Of a stretch of DNA of 14,540 bases, positions 472-11,183 are shown piece by piece. The position numbers were made by a program, and so were the translations under genes. Source of the stretch: Capsulimonas sp. (GTDB lineage: Bacteria; Armatimonadota; Armatimonadia; Armatimonadales; Capsulimonadaceae); assembly GCA_025963815.1 (NCBI GenBank), contig JAOQAA010000321.1, forward strand, positions 1 to 14,540. Direction: 5' to 3'. The notes under the pieces were generated by a model. It had not been told where the DNA came from. It did not search any database and saw only the letters and a program-made list of their open reading frames with translations. Each line of letters starts with the position of its first letter. Positions within the stretch are counted from its first letter, which is position 1.

Positions 472-1251
472 TTACGACCGTGATGCGTCCCACAGGTTAA
501 CGGGCTGGACGGTGCTCAGGGGGTGTAGCGCCTTGACATGTCCATCGCAAAACAGAAAATTTGAGAGGCCATTGGAGTGAGCGCTTACGCCGCCATTCTG
601 GCCGCCAGGAAAAGTTGCATTGGCAGGTTTAGTGGGATCGGGAAACACGCCGCCAGGGCCGAACCAGTTGACGCCAAATATAATCCCTTCGAAACCGGCA
701 TGTGAGGCGTTCATGCCGCCATACTTATCTGTGTCGGAATTCCAGTGCTCGGTTACAAGAATAGTGTCGGCCGGCGAACCGATCTGCGCAAGCGTCCTGC
801 CGCCGTGTATACCGCCGTTCCAATCTTGTAACCCCATGACTCCTTGGGTTATTGGTCCTACTGAGTCAAATCCTATCATACCGTTGACCGCGTAGGAGAT
901 AGAAGTACCCTCCCAGGTGTTAACGCCGGTCTTGCTGTCGTCAGGACAATTGTAGGACTTATAGGTTTTGACATAGGACGAAATTTCCTCGGGCCAGACG
1001 GAGTTGGTCTCGCCCCAAAAGGCACCGCCGTCGACGGTTTCTGCTGCGTAAGGATATCTCTCGTCGTTGTCCTGCACATACTGCATAAACGCCAGGCCAA
1101 GTTGCTTTTCGTTGCTGGCGCAGCTGATCTGGCGCGCCTTTTCACGGGCCTGCGCGAAGACCGGGAAGAGAATGGCGGCCAGTATTGCGATGATAGCGAT
1201 GACAACCAGTAATTCGATCAGTGTGAAACCAAGTTTAGATTTGCGTATCAT
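472..1251 (-). CDS. DUF1559-type prepilin-like protein with N-terminal methylation motif
   Basis: A 259-residue protein. The N-terminus carries a type IV prepilin/pseudopilin leader: a basic start, the cleavage site G8|F9, Glu at position 5 of the mature protein, then about 20 hydrophobic residues of the [14 protein letters not shown] type. The next part (R-E-K-A-R, then [12 protein letters not shown]) is typical of the DUF1559 family. Near the C-terminus a His (225) and Asp-Gly (236-237) form the 'H-X9-DG' signature, here with ten rather than nine residues between. Members are predicted to be processed by prepilin peptidase and displayed on the cell surface; their role is unclear. The ATG at 1251 is preferred because AAAGGA lies about 11 nt upstream and the leader begins there; the open frame continues upstream to 1380 but that part is leader RNA. 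It is divergent from the LacI-type gene. Confidence 0.9.
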
Positions 1252-1481
1252 TGAGAAATAAGTCCTTTCGATTTTGAACCGTCTCGTCAGAGAAGAAACG
1301 TTTGCCACGCCTATCTTATGATATAGGATATGGTCTCCTTTCATCTGTCCTGATATTCCGTCGGAAAAGGATGGCTCCATGGAAAAGCATCGCGTTCGGT
1401 TGTTTTCGGCTCAACGACCGATTGCCCGAAATCAACGCTAACATCCCTTCCTCGGAAAACCAAGTTCGCTCTTATGGCAAA

Positions 1482-1510
1482 AGTATATCACTATGGCGTG
1501 CATCTGTCAA
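1482..1510 (-). promoter_or_regulatory. Sigma70-type promoter of the prepilin-like gene
   Basis: Reading the minus strand, TTGACA (1510-1505) is followed after exactly 17 bp by TATACT (1487-1482), and the -10 box is preceded by TGA, giving an extended -10 (TGnTATACT). This is close to the sigma70 consensus. Transcription would begin near 1475 and leave a 5' leader of about 225 nt before the ATG at 1251. Confidence 0.7.
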
Positions 1511-1628: not shown

Positions 1629-1716
1629 GAAGCTTGGCGGCTGCCCGCCGGCATCCGCACGCAGGGGATATCACGAGGATACGGCGGCTTGGCCATTGCG
1701 AGAAACGGAGATTTAG

Positions 1717-3156
1717 ATGCCGGAGATATGCTGCCCGCGATGTGGAAGCTGGGCGAAACAGGTGAAGGCCGGGATGAACAATGGTCGCCAGCAGTACCGA
1801 TGTGACGCCTGCCGGCGCCGCTACGTGGCGGAGCGGAAAGGGCGCGGCTATCCGGGCAGCCTGCGGGAGCAGGCGGCGGCTCTGCACGCCGAAGGCCGGA
1901 CGCTCGCTCTGATCGGGGAGACGCTAGGGGTGACGCCGCGGACGTTGCGCAACTGGTTCCGGGAGGGCGATCCGAAAGAAGAGGAGCAAGCGGAGCCGCC
2001 GGCTGTCTCGGATGTCACGCACAGTTCCCAGTCCCCCGCTCCAAGCATCGTGGGCGATCCAGACGAAGCGGCGGCAGGCCGGCCGGCCGACAAGATGGCG
2101 CCTGAAGCGCCCGCGGCGCGGAGGCGCTCCACGATCCACGATGTGGCCGAGCAGGCCGGAGTGGCGGCGTCAACGGTTTCCAATTACCTGAACGGCAAGA
2201 GGCGGATAAATGCAAGCACACGCGAGCGCGTCCAGGAGGCGATCGACGCGCTAAACTTCACGCCGAATGCGCTGACGCAGGCGATCCGGAAGCGACGAAC
2301 GCGCATCCTGGGCGTGATGGGCCACGGTCTCTGGGACTTCGTCGAATTGCCGACCTACTCGATCATCCTGCCCCTGCTGGCCGGGATCAACCGGAGCGCG
2401 GCAACGGCCGGACACGATGTGCTGACATATACAAGCTGGTACACGCCAGGACCACACGGCGGCGTCCGCTTTCTCGACGGGTATATCGATGGGCTCGTCG
2501 TGATCGGCTCGACACTCCGCGACGCCTTGCTGGAGCGAACGGCCGCAGCCGGCCTCCCCATTGTCTCGGCGCTGACCCGACAAGTCCCGGCCAATAGCGG
2601 ATATGTCAATGTCGACAACATTGGGGCGATGCACGCCGTTGTTGAGCACCTCGTATCGGTCGGTCGCCGGCGCATCGGCTATGTTGGCCCACTCCACGAC
2701 TCCGACCACATCGACCGCTACCAGGGATTCAGTGAGGCGATGACCGCCGTGGGTCTGGAGTGGGATCCGTCTCCCATGGAATTTGCGTGCCGATCCGCGG
2801 ATCTCCTTACGCAAGAGGTGGTGGAACGCCAGCTGCATCGCATGATACAGACTGCGGAAAAGCTGGATGCGATCGTCCTGCCGAACGACTGGCTGGCGGC
2901 CCGGACGGTCGAAGCACTCGGCAAGCGTGGCTTCCGGGTCCCCGAGGACGTTGCGATTACCGGCTTCGATGATGTTCCAGAGGCGATGCACATCGCCGGC
3001 GGCCTGACGACGGTTCGGCAGCCGTTCCACCGAATCGGGCAAGTGGCGGTGGAACGGCTGGTGGCGATGATCGAAGGCGCGCCTCTCTCCGAATGCCGGA
3101 TCTCCCTGCCTGCCGAGCTGATCGTGCGGGCGTCGACCACGGGCGTGCATGGCTGA
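1717..3156 (+). CDS. LacI-family transcriptional regulator with extra N-terminal zinc ribbon and HTH
   Basis: A 479-residue protein with two apparent DNA-binding modules. Residues 5-37 form a zinc ribbon (C6-x2-C9 and C29-x2-C32) of the type at the N-terminus of IS1 InsA-like transposases. Residues about 48-82 form a simple helix-turn-helix of the transposase or Hin kind. A flexible Glu/Pro/Ala-rich linker (83-136) follows. Residues 137-185 are a standard LacI HTH with hinge (T-I-H-D-V-A-E-Q-A-G-V, S-T-V-S-N-Y-L-N-G). Residues about 195-475 are the periplasmic-binding-protein-like sensor, with typical D-G-L-V-V-I-G, G-R-R-R-I-G-Y-V-G and I-T-G-F-D-D segments, expected to bind a sugar. LacI proteins are usually about 340 residues, so the extra ~135 residues are an addition. 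GGAG lies 6 nt before the ATG. It probably controls nearby sugar-utilisation genes and perhaps itself. The LacI assignment is secure; the function of the added part is unknown. Confidence 0.92.
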   Translation: MPEICCPRCGSWAKQVKAGMNNGRQQYRCDACRRRYVAERKGRGYPGSLREQAAALHAEGRTLALIGETLGVTPRTLRNWFREGDPKEEEQAEPPAVSDVTHSSQSPAPSIVGDPDEAAAGRPADKMAPEAPAARRRSTIHDVAEQAGVAASTVSNYLNGKRRINASTRERVQEAIDALNFTPNALTQAIRKRRTRILGVMGHGLWDFVELPTYSIILPLLAGINRSAATAGHDVLTYTSWYTPGPHGGVRFLDGYIDGLVVIGSTLRDALLERTAAAGLPIVSALTRQVPANSGYVNVDNIGAMHAVVEHLVSVGRRRIGYVGPLHDSDHIDRYQGFSEAMTAVGLEWDPSPMEFACRSADLLTQEVVERQLHRMIQTAEKLDAIVLPNDWLAARTVEALGKRGFRVPEDVAITGFDDVPEAMHIAGGLTTVRQPFHRIGQVAVERLVAMIEGAPLSECRISLPAELIVRASTTGVHG

Positions 3157-3394: not shown

Positions 3395-4039
3395 TTACGG
3401 CGCGGCGATGATCTTATCGCTCAGGCGCATGTAGTCGAAGTCCACAAAACCGCCCGCTGTCTTGGTCGCAAAGTTGAATAGACCGAAGCGGTAGCCCATG
3501 AAGTGCGGCATGTCGTAGATCATGTGCAGCGGCTCCCCGATCGCGTTCCAGTCCTTGCCGTTGAGACTGTAATAGAAATACGCCTTGTCTGTACGCGCCT
3601 TGAAGTCGCAGTCGATCCTCAGAAATACAGTATAGCGCTCCTCGCGGGCGATCACCTGCGTCTGGATCGCGATCAGCACCAACGGGAGCAAGGCGAAGGC
3701 AATCGGCCCGTCGAAGCCGATCGCAAGGCCGGCATAGATAAGCGTCATGCCGAGATATATGGGATTGCGAGTCCACCGATAAGGACCGGCCGTTGCGATG
3801 AGGGTCGTTGGCTGCGACGGCGGAACGTTGGCGCCCAGCCGCCGGAACAGCCCCGCCGCAAGCATCATCGCCGCGCCGGCAACGAACAGCAGCGCGCCGA
3901 TCGCGACCAGCAACCGCCAGTCGATGCCGAAAGAGCGCAGGGTGACTAACCGCTCCGCCGCCAGCCCCAACAGCAGCGCTCCCAGATAGACGAAGGGCGG
4001 AGGGAAGCGCACACCAGCGCTGTCCGGTTCGACGGCCAT
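3395..4039 (-). CDS. Chimera: isoprenylcysteine methyltransferase-like N-part fused to a GH43 C-terminal end
   Basis: A 214-residue reading frame made of two unrelated pieces. Residues 1-136 are an isoprenylcysteine carboxyl methyltransferase (ICMT)-family membrane protein: hydrophobic segments near the N-terminus, the signature G-P-Y-R-W-T-R-N-P-I-Y-L-G, more hydrophobic segments, then R-E-E-R-Y. At this point the family normally continues with a conserved Leu/Phe/Tyr/Arg tail needed for S-adenosylmethionine binding. Instead, from residue 137 (about nt 3631) it continues as the last 78 residues of a GH43 enzyme, closely matching the end of the GH43 protein encoded at 6595-8259 (shared run H-F-M-G-Y-R-F-G-L-F-N). 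The start at 4039 has GGAG 6 nt upstream; an upstream ATG at 4045 is less well placed. The gene begins 21 bp after the flavoprotein stop, so the two form an operon. The methyltransferase is probably inactive. Both halves are clearly visible; how they joined is inferred. Confidence 0.8.
   Translation of the reverse strand: MAVEPDSAGVRFPPPFVYLGALLLGLAAERLVTLRSFGIDWRLLVAIGALLFVAGAAMMLAAGLFRRLGANVPPSQPTTLIATAGPYRWTRNPIYLGMTLIYAGLAIGFDGPIAFALLPLVLIAIQTQVIAREERYTVFLRIDCDFKARTDKAYFYYSLNGKDWNAIGEPLHMIYDMPHFMGYRFGLFNFATKTAGGFVDFDYMRLSDKIIAAP
3404..3508 (-). repeat. Left copy of a near-identical GH43 3'-end repeat
   Basis: About 105 bp, differing by roughly four bases from 6637-6741 in the same orientation. 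It encodes the C-terminal end of the concanavalin A-like domain of a GH43 enzyme. Upstream (3509-3631) homology continues at the protein level but is much weaker at the DNA level. The very high identity confined to the 3' end suggests a recent duplication, gene conversion or homologous recombination between the copies. Confidence 0.8.
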
Positions 4040-4060
4040 GCTCATCTCCAATCTGTGCGC

Positions 4061-6537: not shown

Positions 6538-6643
6538 ATCGCCGTGGAGCGGCTGCTGGCGATGATCGAGGGTGCCCCACCTCCGACTGCCAGATCACCC
6601 TGCCGGCTGAGTTGATGGTGCAGACATCGACAGTGGGGCGATG
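6538..6643 (+). pseudogene. 3' remnant of a second LacI-type regulator gene
   Basis: The sequence matches the last ~35 codons of the regulator at 1717-3156 (compare 3043-3156): I-A-V-E-R-L-L-A-M-I-E-G-A-P, then after a one-base deletion near 6584, S-D-C-Q-I-T-L-P-A-E-L-M-V-Q-T-S-T-V-G-R and TGA at 6641-6643. Everything upstream is gone and replaced by IS701 debris. Its stop lies within sequence homologous to the end of the GH43 gene, so the two 3' ends now overlap. Confidence 0.8.
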
Positions 6644-8259
6644 ATCTTATCGCTCAGGCGCATGTAGTCGAAGTCCACGAAACCGCCCGCTGTCTTGGTC
6701 GCATAGTTGAACAGACCGAAGCGGTAGCCCATGAAGTGTGGGCTGCTGTATTCCATCCGTAGCGACTTCCCGACGGCGGTCCATGTCTTGTTGTCGAGGC
6801 TATAGTAGAAGTACGCCCTGTTGTCGAGGTTGTAAAAGAGCTGCGGCTGGTTTTGGTCTCCTCGGTCCTTGAAGTCGCAGTCGATCTTGAGATAAACAGT
6901 CTTCTGCGTGAGCGGGATGCTCGCAAGTTCTTCCGGGCTGTCTGTCTGCGCGTTAATCATGACGATGGACCGGACGCCGCCATCCATCTTGACGCCGACA
7001 ATGCCATATTTCTTTTGCAGCGCGATCATCCCTGCATAGTCGCCGTCCTTCATGCTGCTCACGGTGATGGCGGTGGTCGCAGAGCTTTCGAGGCCGAAGG
7101 TGCGCTGGGTGAGAGTGTTGCGCGCCTGGGTTACCTCCGTATCCACGCGGCCCGTGGTCAAGCGCAGGCTGCCGGGATGCGCAGTGACCGACCAGTTTGC
7201 GTTGTCCGGATTGTGGTTCCACTGCCACACCAGAGGGAGAGGGCGATCGCCGGGTTTGCGGTTGAACTCGTCGGAGGCCACAATACCGGAGACGCCGATC
7301 TTATTGGCCGGGAGGTTGAGCGTTTCCGGAACCTTACCGTTCACTCCGACGACAGGCCATCCATCCACCCACGTCATGGGAACGAGGTAGGGTATGCGCC
7401 CGACCGAGCCGCGATCGCCGAACAGGTAGGCGTACCACTCGCCCTTGGGCGTATCGATCATACCGCCCTGCGCGACGCCCTGATCGTGGAACATGACCTT
7501 ACCCTCATACGGCCCAGTGATCTTGTCGGCCCGATGAATGACTTCGGTGCGCATGTCATTCTTTGGCCAGGTAACATTGCAAAGGTAATACTTGCCGTTG
7601 ATCTTGCGCATCTGCGAGCCTTCCGCAGGCATGCCAGGGGCGCCGCCCGCCACGTCGCCCGCCTTGGGAACAATGACCTGATCCACCCCGCCGGGCAGGA
7701 AGCCGGTCAGGTCCGGCTTCAACTCAGTAAGCCGAATATCACCGGATCCATAGATCAGGTAGACGCGCCCGTCGTCGTCGAAGAACAAGGAGTGATCGTG
7801 GAGGGCGGGAGAGAAGGAAGTTTCCTTCCAGGGCGTCTTGTTAGGATCTTTGGTGCTATAGATGTAGGTCTTGCCGGTAGTAAAGGAGAAGGTCGTGACG
7901 TAGAACGTGCCGTTATGGTAGCGCAAGCTGCTCGCCCAGGACCCCCAGCTATAGGCGTTCTTGCCGTTTGACAAGGTAAGCGCGTCAGTATCGCCGAGGG
8001 TTTCGTAGGCGTAGCTGGCCATCTCCCAATTCACCAGGTCCTTAGACTTCATGATCGGCAGCCCTGGACTCATATGCATGGTGGTGCTGCTCATGTAGTA
8101 GGTGCCGCCGACCCGTATCATGGCGATATCCGGCACGTCTGCCCAGAGGATAGGATTCTGCGCCTTCTTGGTTGAGTCAACCCCTAGAGCGCATGGAGTC
8201 GGCGCCACACCTACGATGATCAAGGAAAGCGCCGCAAAGCACAGCAGTGATTTGTTCAT
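6595..8259 (-). CDS. Secreted GH43 beta-xylosidase / alpha-L-arabinofuranosidase
   Basis: A 554-residue protein. Residues 1-26 form a signal peptide. The five-bladed propeller of GH43 covers about 35-320, with opening motifs D-V-P-D-I, G-G-T-Y-Y-M-S-S-T-T-M-H-M-S-P-G and I-M-K-S-K-D-L-V-N-W. Likely catalytic residues are the base D44, the pKa-modulating D155 (H-D-H-S-L-F-F-D-D-D-G) and the acid E213 (P-A-E-G-S). A beta-xylosidase-type concanavalin A-like domain follows (about 335-540). Family members cut xylo- or arabino-oligosaccharide ends; the exact substrate cannot be read here. The ATG at 8259 starts the signal peptide; the longer frame to 8346 is leader. No strong ribosome site is visible. 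The last 13 residues are encoded by the antisense of a LacI gene remnant and have no counterpart in the related end at 3395; this should be harmless. It is the last gene of the minus-strand run. Confidence 0.93.
   Translation of the reverse strand: MNKSLLCFAALSLIIVGVAPTPCALGVDSTKKAQNPILWADVPDIAMIRVGGTYYMSSTTMHMSPGLPIMKSKDLVNWEMASYAYETLGDTDALTLSNGKNAYSWGSWASSLRYHNGTFYVTTFSFTTGKTYIYSTKDPNKTPWKETSFSPALHDHSLFFDDDGRVYLIYGSGDIRLTELKPDLTGFLPGGVDQVIVPKAGDVAGGAPGMPAEGSQMRKINGKYYLCNVTWPKNDMRTEVIHRADKITGPYEGKVMFHDQGVAQGGMIDTPKGEWYAYLFGDRGSVGRIPYLVPMTWVDGWPVVGVNGKVPETLNLPANKIGVSGIVASDEFNRKPGDRPLPLVWQWNHNPDNANWSVTAHPGSLRLTTGRVDTEVTQARNTLTQRTFGLESSATTAITVSSMKDGDYAGMIALQKKYGIVGVKMDGGVRSIVMINAQTDSPEELASIPLTQKTVYLKIDCDFKDRGDQNQPQLFYNLDNRAYFYYSLDNKTWTAVGKSLRMEYSSPHFMGYRFGLFNYATKTAGGFVDFDYMRLSDKIIAPLSMSAPSTQPAG
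6637..6741 (-). repeat. Right copy of the GH43 3'-end repeat
   Basis: The partner of 3404-3508 in the same orientation, about 96% identical by eye. It lies inside the intact GH43 gene. Homology begins exactly where the LacI remnant ends (about 6637), marking the boundary of a deletion or recombination. Confidence 0.8.
6789..6841 (-). repeat. 30-nt internal duplication in the GH43 gene
   Basis: TGTTGTCGAGG starts at 6789 and again at 6819, and the following 12 bases are also similar. In the protein this gives L-F-Y-N-L-D-N-R-A-Y followed by F-Y-Y-S-L-D-N-K-T-W. The related tail at 3395-3631 lacks about 12 residues here, so a small in-frame duplication happened after the copies separated. Confidence 0.6.
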
Positions 8260-8293
8260 AATTTGTTTTTTTATAAAATGACCTGAATTTCGA

Positions 8294-8330
8294 GCAGAAC
8301 TCGTTGAATGTCGGTCGTCCTTCAAGTTTA
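8294..8330 (-). repeat. 37-bp exact repeat upstream of the GH43 gene (copy 1)
   Basis: Identical over 37 bp to 11087-11123, in the same orientation. On the minus strand it starts TAAACTTGAAGGACGACC and ends GAGTTCTGC. Here it lies 35-71 bp upstream of the GH43 ATG, a fitting place for a regulatory site or promoter element; it contains TTGAA and TTCAA 12 bp apart as an inverted repeat. Its function is unknown. Confidence 0.7.
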
Positions 8331-8441
8331 GCGGCGCAATCGCCAACTTTCTCCCGAATCGGTGAGAATCCCTGTAACCGCCAATCTCTAGCTAGCCTGG
8401 ATAATTTACGTATTAACTGAAGCTAACCTCTGGATAATGCG

Positions 8442-10994: not shown

Positions 10995-11086
10995 ACGGAC
11001 CCGCAGGAGATCGACGAGCGCCTCGCGAGATACGCTGATTGTCGGCGAGAGCCGATCGGATTTCGCATAGTCGATCAGGCTCCGCA

Positions 11087-11123
11087 GCAGAACTCGTTGA
11101 ATGTCGGTCGTCCTTCAAGTTTA
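11087..11123 (-). repeat. 37-bp exact repeat upstream of the discoidin-like gene (copy 2)
   Basis: Identical to 8294-8330. Here it lies 93-129 bp upstream of the TTG at 10994 and 60 bp after the GH43-CBM6 stop. Part of it falls into the open frame that extends the discoidin-like gene upstream. Two equal copies in front of different glycosidase-related genes suggest a shared regulatory element or a small repeat family. Confidence 0.7.
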
Positions 11124-11183
11124 CTGGCAACATCTTCTGTAGTAGTGCGCAATTCGATCAAGTCCGGCAGTGTGCGGCCAGGG

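Follow-up and report, generated by a model that had tools for sequence, protein, structure and literature searches.

Judged by its sequence, a regulator from Capsulimonas sp. carries the DNA-binding part of an insertion-sequence transposase in front of a complete LacI-family protein. The window, which is the whole stretch of 14,540 nucleotides that was analysed, contains an open reading frame for a 479-aa protein composed of an IS1 InsA/transposase-type zinc ribbon and helix-turn-helix (aa 6–83, here called the module), a disordered linker (85–132), and a complete LacI regulator (139–476). The fused proteins are probably local repressors, mainly of DUF1559 pseudopilin-like genes, whose grip on DNA is reinforced by the captured IS1 InsA/transposase head. 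This proposal draws on what can be read from sequence, namely the identity of the module, the intact start, a single LacI clade with losses, purifying selection in one orthologous pair, and the presence of palindromes.

Domain architecture of the fused protein

Table 1. Features of the fused gene and of the divergent gene beside it, by position in the window
Feature	Position	Strand	Evidence or remark
Whole gene: IS1-type module, linker and LacI-family regulator (ATG start)	1717..3156	+	479 aa
Likely ribosome-binding site GGAG	1707..1710	+	read from the sequence; 6 bases before the ATG
Zinc ribbon, aa 6–38 (C6, C9, C29, C32)	1732..1830	+	NF050000 above cut-off; Cys invariant in 22 modules; hairpin in models
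Transposase-type helix-turn-helix, aa 47–83	1855..1965	+	
Flexible linker, acidic and proline-rich, aa 85–134	1969..2118	+	pLDDT <50 for 85–132; low identity
LacI helix-turn-helix, aa 139–184	2131..2268	+	PF00356
LacI effector-binding core, aa 197–476	2305..3144	+	Peripla_BP_3, aa 309–474; CelR/CcpA/PurR/LacI structures
Divergent DUF1559/pseudopilin-like gene, likely target	472..1251	-	PF07596 and N_methyl
Promoter of the divergent gene, TTGACA-N17-TATACT	1482..1510	-	
Candidate operator position, AAGAGCGAACTTGGTTTTCCG	1453..1473	-	8 bases past the -10 box; position as in relatives

A TAG stands in frame directly 5' of the ATG (1714–1716); thus, the N-terminus cannot start further upstream. 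The NCBIfam model of the IS1/IS1595 zinc domain (NF050000) matches aa 6–38 with 31.6 bits in the first 134 aa and 29.3 bits against the whole protein (cut-off 28), which identifies a zinc ribbon of IS1/IS1595 type. The IS1 transposase model NF033558 aligns to aa 6–94 over its positions 1–89 of 199 and gathers 51.6 of the 100 bits that its cut-off demands. The protein is not a full-length IS1 transposase by this model, and a score below the full-length cut-off is expected because the module is a fragment. Two Pfam models give further scores: HTH_Tnp_ISL3 reaches 30.0 (cut-off 27.4) in the whole protein as a sum over two stretches and 15.9, under the cut-off, on the first 134 aa only, and Zn_ribbon_InsA scores 14.4 on these 134 aa, below its cut-off of 26.1. 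The remainder of the protein belongs to the LacI/GalR family by both its helix-turn-helix (PF00356, aa 139–184, 59.8 bits, cut-off 27) and its effector core (Peripla_BP_3, PF13377, aa 309–474, 109.6 bits, cut-off 26.5).

AlphaFold2 models the zinc ribbon as a hairpin (strands 16–21, 24–28, and 35–37) and the helix-turn-helix of the module as three helices (47–58, 63–70, and 74–83). Residues 85–132 have pLDDT values below 50, as expected of a disordered linker, and a LacI fold follows. The top structural matches of the LacI part are CelR, CcpA, PurR, and LacI. An IS1 InsA-type zinc ribbon and helix-turn-helix joined by an acidic, proline-rich linker to a full LacI protein had been described in an earlier note made from the sequence of the window alone, and NF050000, the two LacI models and the predicted structure bear out each of these parts. 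The span that the note gave, 1717..2271, does hold the module, the linker, and the LacI helix-turn-helix, but the gene runs to 3156. The start codon was also checked, and with the stop in frame right before the ATG, the later start that the note had allowed for is not indicated.

Distribution of the fused genes

How widespread is this layout? A protein search, in which scoring covered the 7995 candidates sharing most words, gave 636 matches. From the best 120 of these, alignment A1 takes 49 of the top 50, window protein included, with the 319-aa fragment P0039 left out. All 48 aligned relatives have the domain order of the window protein, the module being clipped in three: at least 80 module residues are present in 46 of the 49 rows, and P0012, P0024, and P0027 start 19 residues late. 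Relatives at 40–76% identity align over the full length, module included, and therefore the resemblance is not due to chance. A search with the module of one relative (P0035, aa 1–84), limited to proteins 0.55–1.75 times the length of P0035, gave nine matches among 21 candidates, each of them with a LacI helix-turn-helix; six were new, one of these six being a probable chimera. P0241, in which the module and a LacI helix-turn-helix are followed by an unrelated C-terminus, is a probable assembly chimera and was left out of the 48.

In a survey of 291 genomes from the phylum, with at most 18 candidates scored per genome, a module-like match at E ≤ 1e-6 is present in 25. Long fused frames (456–516 aa) are found in only three, all from the Capsulimonas family: two genes in G000, four in G062, and one in G134, seven genes in all. 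For the other module matches listed, the frame is no longer than 270 aa. An initial survey that covered 201 genomes, with the window module as the sole query, found the identical seven genes. The layout that the earlier note proposed to look for across genomes thus recurs. The note knew of no described family with it, and no description of an IS1-type module on a LacI protein was found in the open-access literature searched.

Origin of the module

The IS1 transposase model NF033558 is matched at E ≤ 0.01 by all 22 modules compared, as fragments below the full-length cut-off; at the same threshold, a general helix-turn-helix model matches 22 of 22 and Zn_ribbon_InsA only seven of 22. Among short proteins, the module alignment has 861 matches at E ≤ 0.001. 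Most of the best 120 are about 110–122 aa long and, if named at all, have transposase-like names; P0121 and P0122 seem to be parts of fused genes. Of 15 loci in the phylum with an IS1-like ORF, five (L035, L039, L045, L048, and L049) have the ORF between inverted repeats that agree at 18 or more of 22 positions, and the flanks match each other over about 7–8 bp. Inverted repeats and duplicated flanks are seen clearly in two copies of an 841-bp element in G112. The suggestion of the earlier note that a transposase part has been domesticated is strengthened by the matches of all 22 modules to the IS1 model, the IS1-like elements, purifying selection, and the single LacI clade described below; the origin of the module as a domesticated IS1 InsA/transposase DNA-binding head is supported by these comparisons.

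Was the module acquired once or repeatedly? In a tree of the LacI part, the fused proteins fall into a single clade with an SH-aLRT value of 100, or 99 with order-level outgroups. Inside this clade are also unfused rows, C165/P0051 (one protein) and the G112 protein at L064, both without the module; P0054, which has kept the zinc ribbon and apparently lacks the helix-turn-helix; and the short sequences P0052, P0053, and P0055, the first two of which still begin within a helix-turn-helix. One LacI clade with unfused members inside it is best explained by a single capture of the module, which was then lost at least twice. The module tree rests on few columns (96, for 46 fused and 29 stand-alone modules): fused modules do not form one group on the best tree, although the AU test does not reject a single fused group (p = 0.246).

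The unfused C165 and the fused Capsulimonas corticalis gene in L094 have an ABC transporter gene as a common neighbour, and C165 is therefore probably the module-less orthologue of the L094 gene. Beside C165 (L092, G000) there is neither the palindrome nor the DUF1559 gene, both of which are present beside the L094 gene; a joint loss of module, operator, and target is possible. Comparison of DNA and protein revealed no convincing remnant of the module upstream of C165. Upstream of the G112 gene at L064 there are only weak module matches, the best of which (E 3e-4 in a 530-base search) is on the opposite strand. The LacI core can thus be maintained in the absence of the module, as in at least two members of the clade (C165/P0051 and G112 L064), a point that counts against the preferred reading.

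Conservation and selection

For the orthologous pair of G000:C504 and the G062 gene at L097, dN/dS is 0.041 for the module (dS 0.45, 84 codons), 0.192 for the LacI helix-turn-helix and hinge, and 0.135 for the effector part. The value of 2.2 for the linker (18 codons) is unreliable, because it is calculated from one synonymous change. Judged by these ratios, the module is the most constrained domain and is under purifying selection in this one orthologous pair, to which the window gene does not belong. At the protein level, the module is about as conserved as the effector part and less so than the LacI helix-turn-helix, with the linker far behind: mean pairwise identities over 49 rows are 48% for the module, 51% for the effector part, 65% for the LacI helix-turn-helix, and 16% for the linker, and among P0001–P0011 they are 77%, 77%, 80%, and 36%, respectively. 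Among the relatives the linker is 17–59 aa long, and neither its length nor its sequence is conserved. The cysteines C6, C9, C29, and C32 are invariant across 22 modules (alignment A2). In the 49 rows of A1, three of which are clipped, C32 alone of the four is invariant and C6, C9, and C29 are present in at least 90%; W80 is invariant and I66 and L70 are nearly so.

These data bear on the possibility that the fusion is an artefact of annotation or recombination, with translation starting later or with the module as a passive leftover. Some members do lack the module, but the stop before the ATG, an N-terminus common to most relatives, and the low dN/dS of the module in the orthologous pair already contradict this explanation, which is highly improbable.

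Palindromes, promoters, and candidate targets

A palindrome near TTGATGAAC-TTG-GTTCATCAA is found beside six of the seven fused genes; at four of them (L093–L096) it is intergenic and close to TTGATGAAC-nnn-GTTCATCAA. In five of the six cases the palindrome starts 7–10 bases past the -10 box of the neighbouring gene. These promoters have a TTGAC -35 box and a spacer of 17 (18 at L093); L095 is without a clear -35 box. By its sequence and position, the palindrome is a candidate LacI-type operator.

With up to two mismatches, G062 has two copies of the palindrome and G134 has one, all three adjoining a fused gene, and G000 has none. With up to three mismatches there are five sites in G062, against two for a reversed control pattern; one of these sites (5487055) lies within an ORF and is probably due to chance. 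A matrix was built from seven sites at four of the six loci, the C504/L097 pair not being among the training sites. At the six loci it scores 19.8–31.4 bits, with 22.3 and 19.8 bits for the C504 and L097 sites; leave-one-out scores of the seven training sites are 23.1–30.4 bits, and letter-shuffled sequence gives 0.29 matches of at least 10 bits per 15 kb. An exact IUPAC pattern is found six times in G062, twice in G000, and once in G134, compared with once across the other 16 genomes of the order; six of these nine sites adjoin six of the seven fused genes. The pattern was drawn from the nine sites and then counted, so the count is circular for G062, G000, and G134, and the scarcity elsewhere is not. 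Allowing one mismatch, it matches most other genomes at about the control rate.

At L093, two family palindromes stand in tandem (7063–7104), 21 bp from start to start, downstream of one promoter. A near-match, TGATAAATCGGATACATCA (one mismatch, both strands), is found at G062:C1:7261177-7261195, with the fused gene at 7249818 some 10 kb away; it is possibly a second target of that regulator.

Which genes might be controlled? At L091, L094, L096, and L097 the adjacent gene after the site encodes a DUF1559 protein with a pseudopilin methylation motif, and L093 and L095 instead have a short ORF there (94 and 132 aa) with no family match. The three exact sites that do not adjoin a fused gene each stand upstream of another gene: in G062 one for a GH2-type glycosidase (1573095) and one for a hypothetical protein (4790719; NF004860 below cut-off), and in G000 one for a BNR-repeat protein (G000:C718). 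The last may be read as a GH74-like enzyme, with no family above cut-off. A nitroreductase-like neighbour is common to the GH2 site and the G000:C718 site.

Candidates for the conserved operators that the earlier note proposed to look for were thus found beside six of the seven fused genes, but in the window the position corresponds to a 9-base core only. The candidate AAGAGCGAACTTGGTTTTCCG has just the core GAACTTGGT (1459–1467) in common with the family palindrome, and its full 21 bases score -11.1 with the family matrix. The core occurs once in the window, where 0.07 occurrences are expected, and is present in 14 of 200 shuffles. The window gene is the only one of the seven without a scoring palindrome. 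A composite of promoter and GAACnnnGTT is found three times in G000, five times in G062, and once in G134, compared with zero, one, and zero control matches; one of the three G000 matches falls in the window, and some composite matches are without a palindrome.

Surroundings of the window gene

The fused gene sits at the end of a minus-strand run of glycosidase genes (an arabinofuranosidase, two GH43 enzymes, and an alpha-galactosidase); a matrix scan did not find the family palindrome at these genes. The 3' end of the LacI gene is duplicated (3046–3137 and 6541–6631, 92 bp, 80%), as is the 3' end of a GH43 gene (3404–3631 and 6637–6900, 185 bp at 84% and 34 bp at 88%). Both duplicates have the same convergent order and flank a block of methyltransferase, pyridine-nucleotide oxidoreductase, and TetR genes. 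It looks as if this block was inserted between a formerly adjacent regulator and GH43 gene via a duplicated junction. An ORF on the minus strand (3395–4051) joins a phospholipid-methyltransferase-like part to a C-terminal fragment of GH43.

A 43-nt repeat, D3, is present at 8293–8335 and 11086–11128 (95% identical). Its 22-base imperfect palindrome has only these two copies in the genome of the window, and is absent from G062 and G134, at up to three mismatches. D3 is doubtful as an operator, since it does not look like the family palindrome and might be left over from a coding sequence.

Does the module have a DNA site of its own?

A search for a second shared motif around the promoters of six loci gave 8–10-mers only mildly above Markov-resampled sequences, and nothing usable. 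The top word, TGATATCCT (up to one mismatch), is found at seven of seven fused loci; of 27 upstream regions of other LacI genes, used as controls, one contains it. This contrast is unfair, since most control regions are less AT-rich. The word was rejected as a second motif: at L091 and L094 its sole match is TGATATACT (the -10 box of the neighbouring gene, and a similar word), at L097 it matches both TGATATACT and TGATATTCT, and its positions are inconsistent. The ends of IS1-like elements gave no site either: those recovered for five of the 15 IS1-like loci differ from each other, and no one site was derived from them.

The lack of a usable second motif and the free length of the linker argue against a rigid composite operator, and not against a loose tether. 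The longer composite operator or two-site tether envisaged in the earlier note is so far unsupported, with LacI-like palindromes at six of seven genes and no usable second motif. A bipartite operator, or a loop between two promoters, in which the module binds a separate specific site, is a special form of the preferred reading and shares part of its probability; taken by itself it is somewhat doubtful. Two distinct DNA-binding families in one chain with a long flexible linker are consistent with it, as are the tandem palindromes at L093 and, according to PMC12428005, the binding of InsA-type domains to specific IS1 ends. However, the search of six loci gave no usable second motif, and a linker that is unconserved in length and sequence argues against a fixed geometry. 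A related and equally tentative proposal is that the IS1 repressor head has been domesticated as a second sequence-specific reader on a sugar repressor, so that a dimer would read two unrelated types of site and could bridge or tether promoters, the hybrid having then been duplicated into a small regulator family.

Could the module have lost specific DNA binding and serve another role, such as zinc or redox sensing, protein contact, or oligomerisation, leaving the LacI part to regulate alone? The lone LacI-sized palindrome at the promoters, the failure to find a second conserved motif, and P0054, which seems to retain the ribbon without the helix-turn-helix, would fit such a change. Elsewhere, however, the helix-turn-helix has been retained with the ribbon, as its invariant W80 and nearly invariant I66 and L70 indicate, and the dN/dS of 0.041 includes it; loss of binding is unlikely.

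In the preferred reading, that of a local repressor with a reinforced grip on DNA, the LacI core would dimerise and sense a sugar-like ligand. It would sit on the palindrome just past the -10 box and so block the adjacent promoter. Repression of the adjacent gene by the LacI part via the palindrome, which we infer, is the best-supported step. Two modules on flexible tethers would make additional contacts with the DNA around the promoter, in the manner of InsA at the IS1 ends, and such contacts might raise affinity, residence, or reach. By this analogy, added DNA contacts near the promoter would be the simplest reading of the role of the module. Dimerisation of LacI is established, and four DNA-binding modules per dimer would follow.

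Comparison with known systems

The fused proteins share with LacI/GalR repressors (LacI, CcpA, PurR, and CelR) a helix-turn-helix, hinge, and periplasmic-binding-like core, and six of the seven fused genes have a candidate operator palindrome beside them, in five cases just downstream of a promoter; they differ from them in the extra 84-aa zinc ribbon and helix-turn-helix in front and in the disordered linker. With InsA, or the N-terminal part of InsAB', of IS1 they share a zinc ribbon and helix-turn-helix of one family (NF050000 and NF033558). In contrast to these proteins, they lack the catalytic InsB part and are joined to a putative ligand-binding repressor. According to PMC12428005, the binding of IS1 ends by InsA requires both the zinc finger and the helix-turn-helix, and InsA strongly represses the IS1 promoter.

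The plant proteins FHY3/FAR1 likewise reuse the DNA-binding part of a transposase in regulation. That part comes from a MULE transposase, whereas here the part has been joined to a bacterial repressor whose own DNA-binding domain is retained.

Host regulators of plants and animals that have taken over the DNA-binding domain of a transposase are well known. The fused genes of the Capsulimonas family would provide a bacterial case with a traceable capture, losses, and measurable selection, in which the effect of the added domain could be tested directly: module-less relatives could serve as natural controls, and promoters and palindromes have already been identified. Each of these repressors would have two kinds of DNA-binding part and not one, and the added module is apparently kept by selection.
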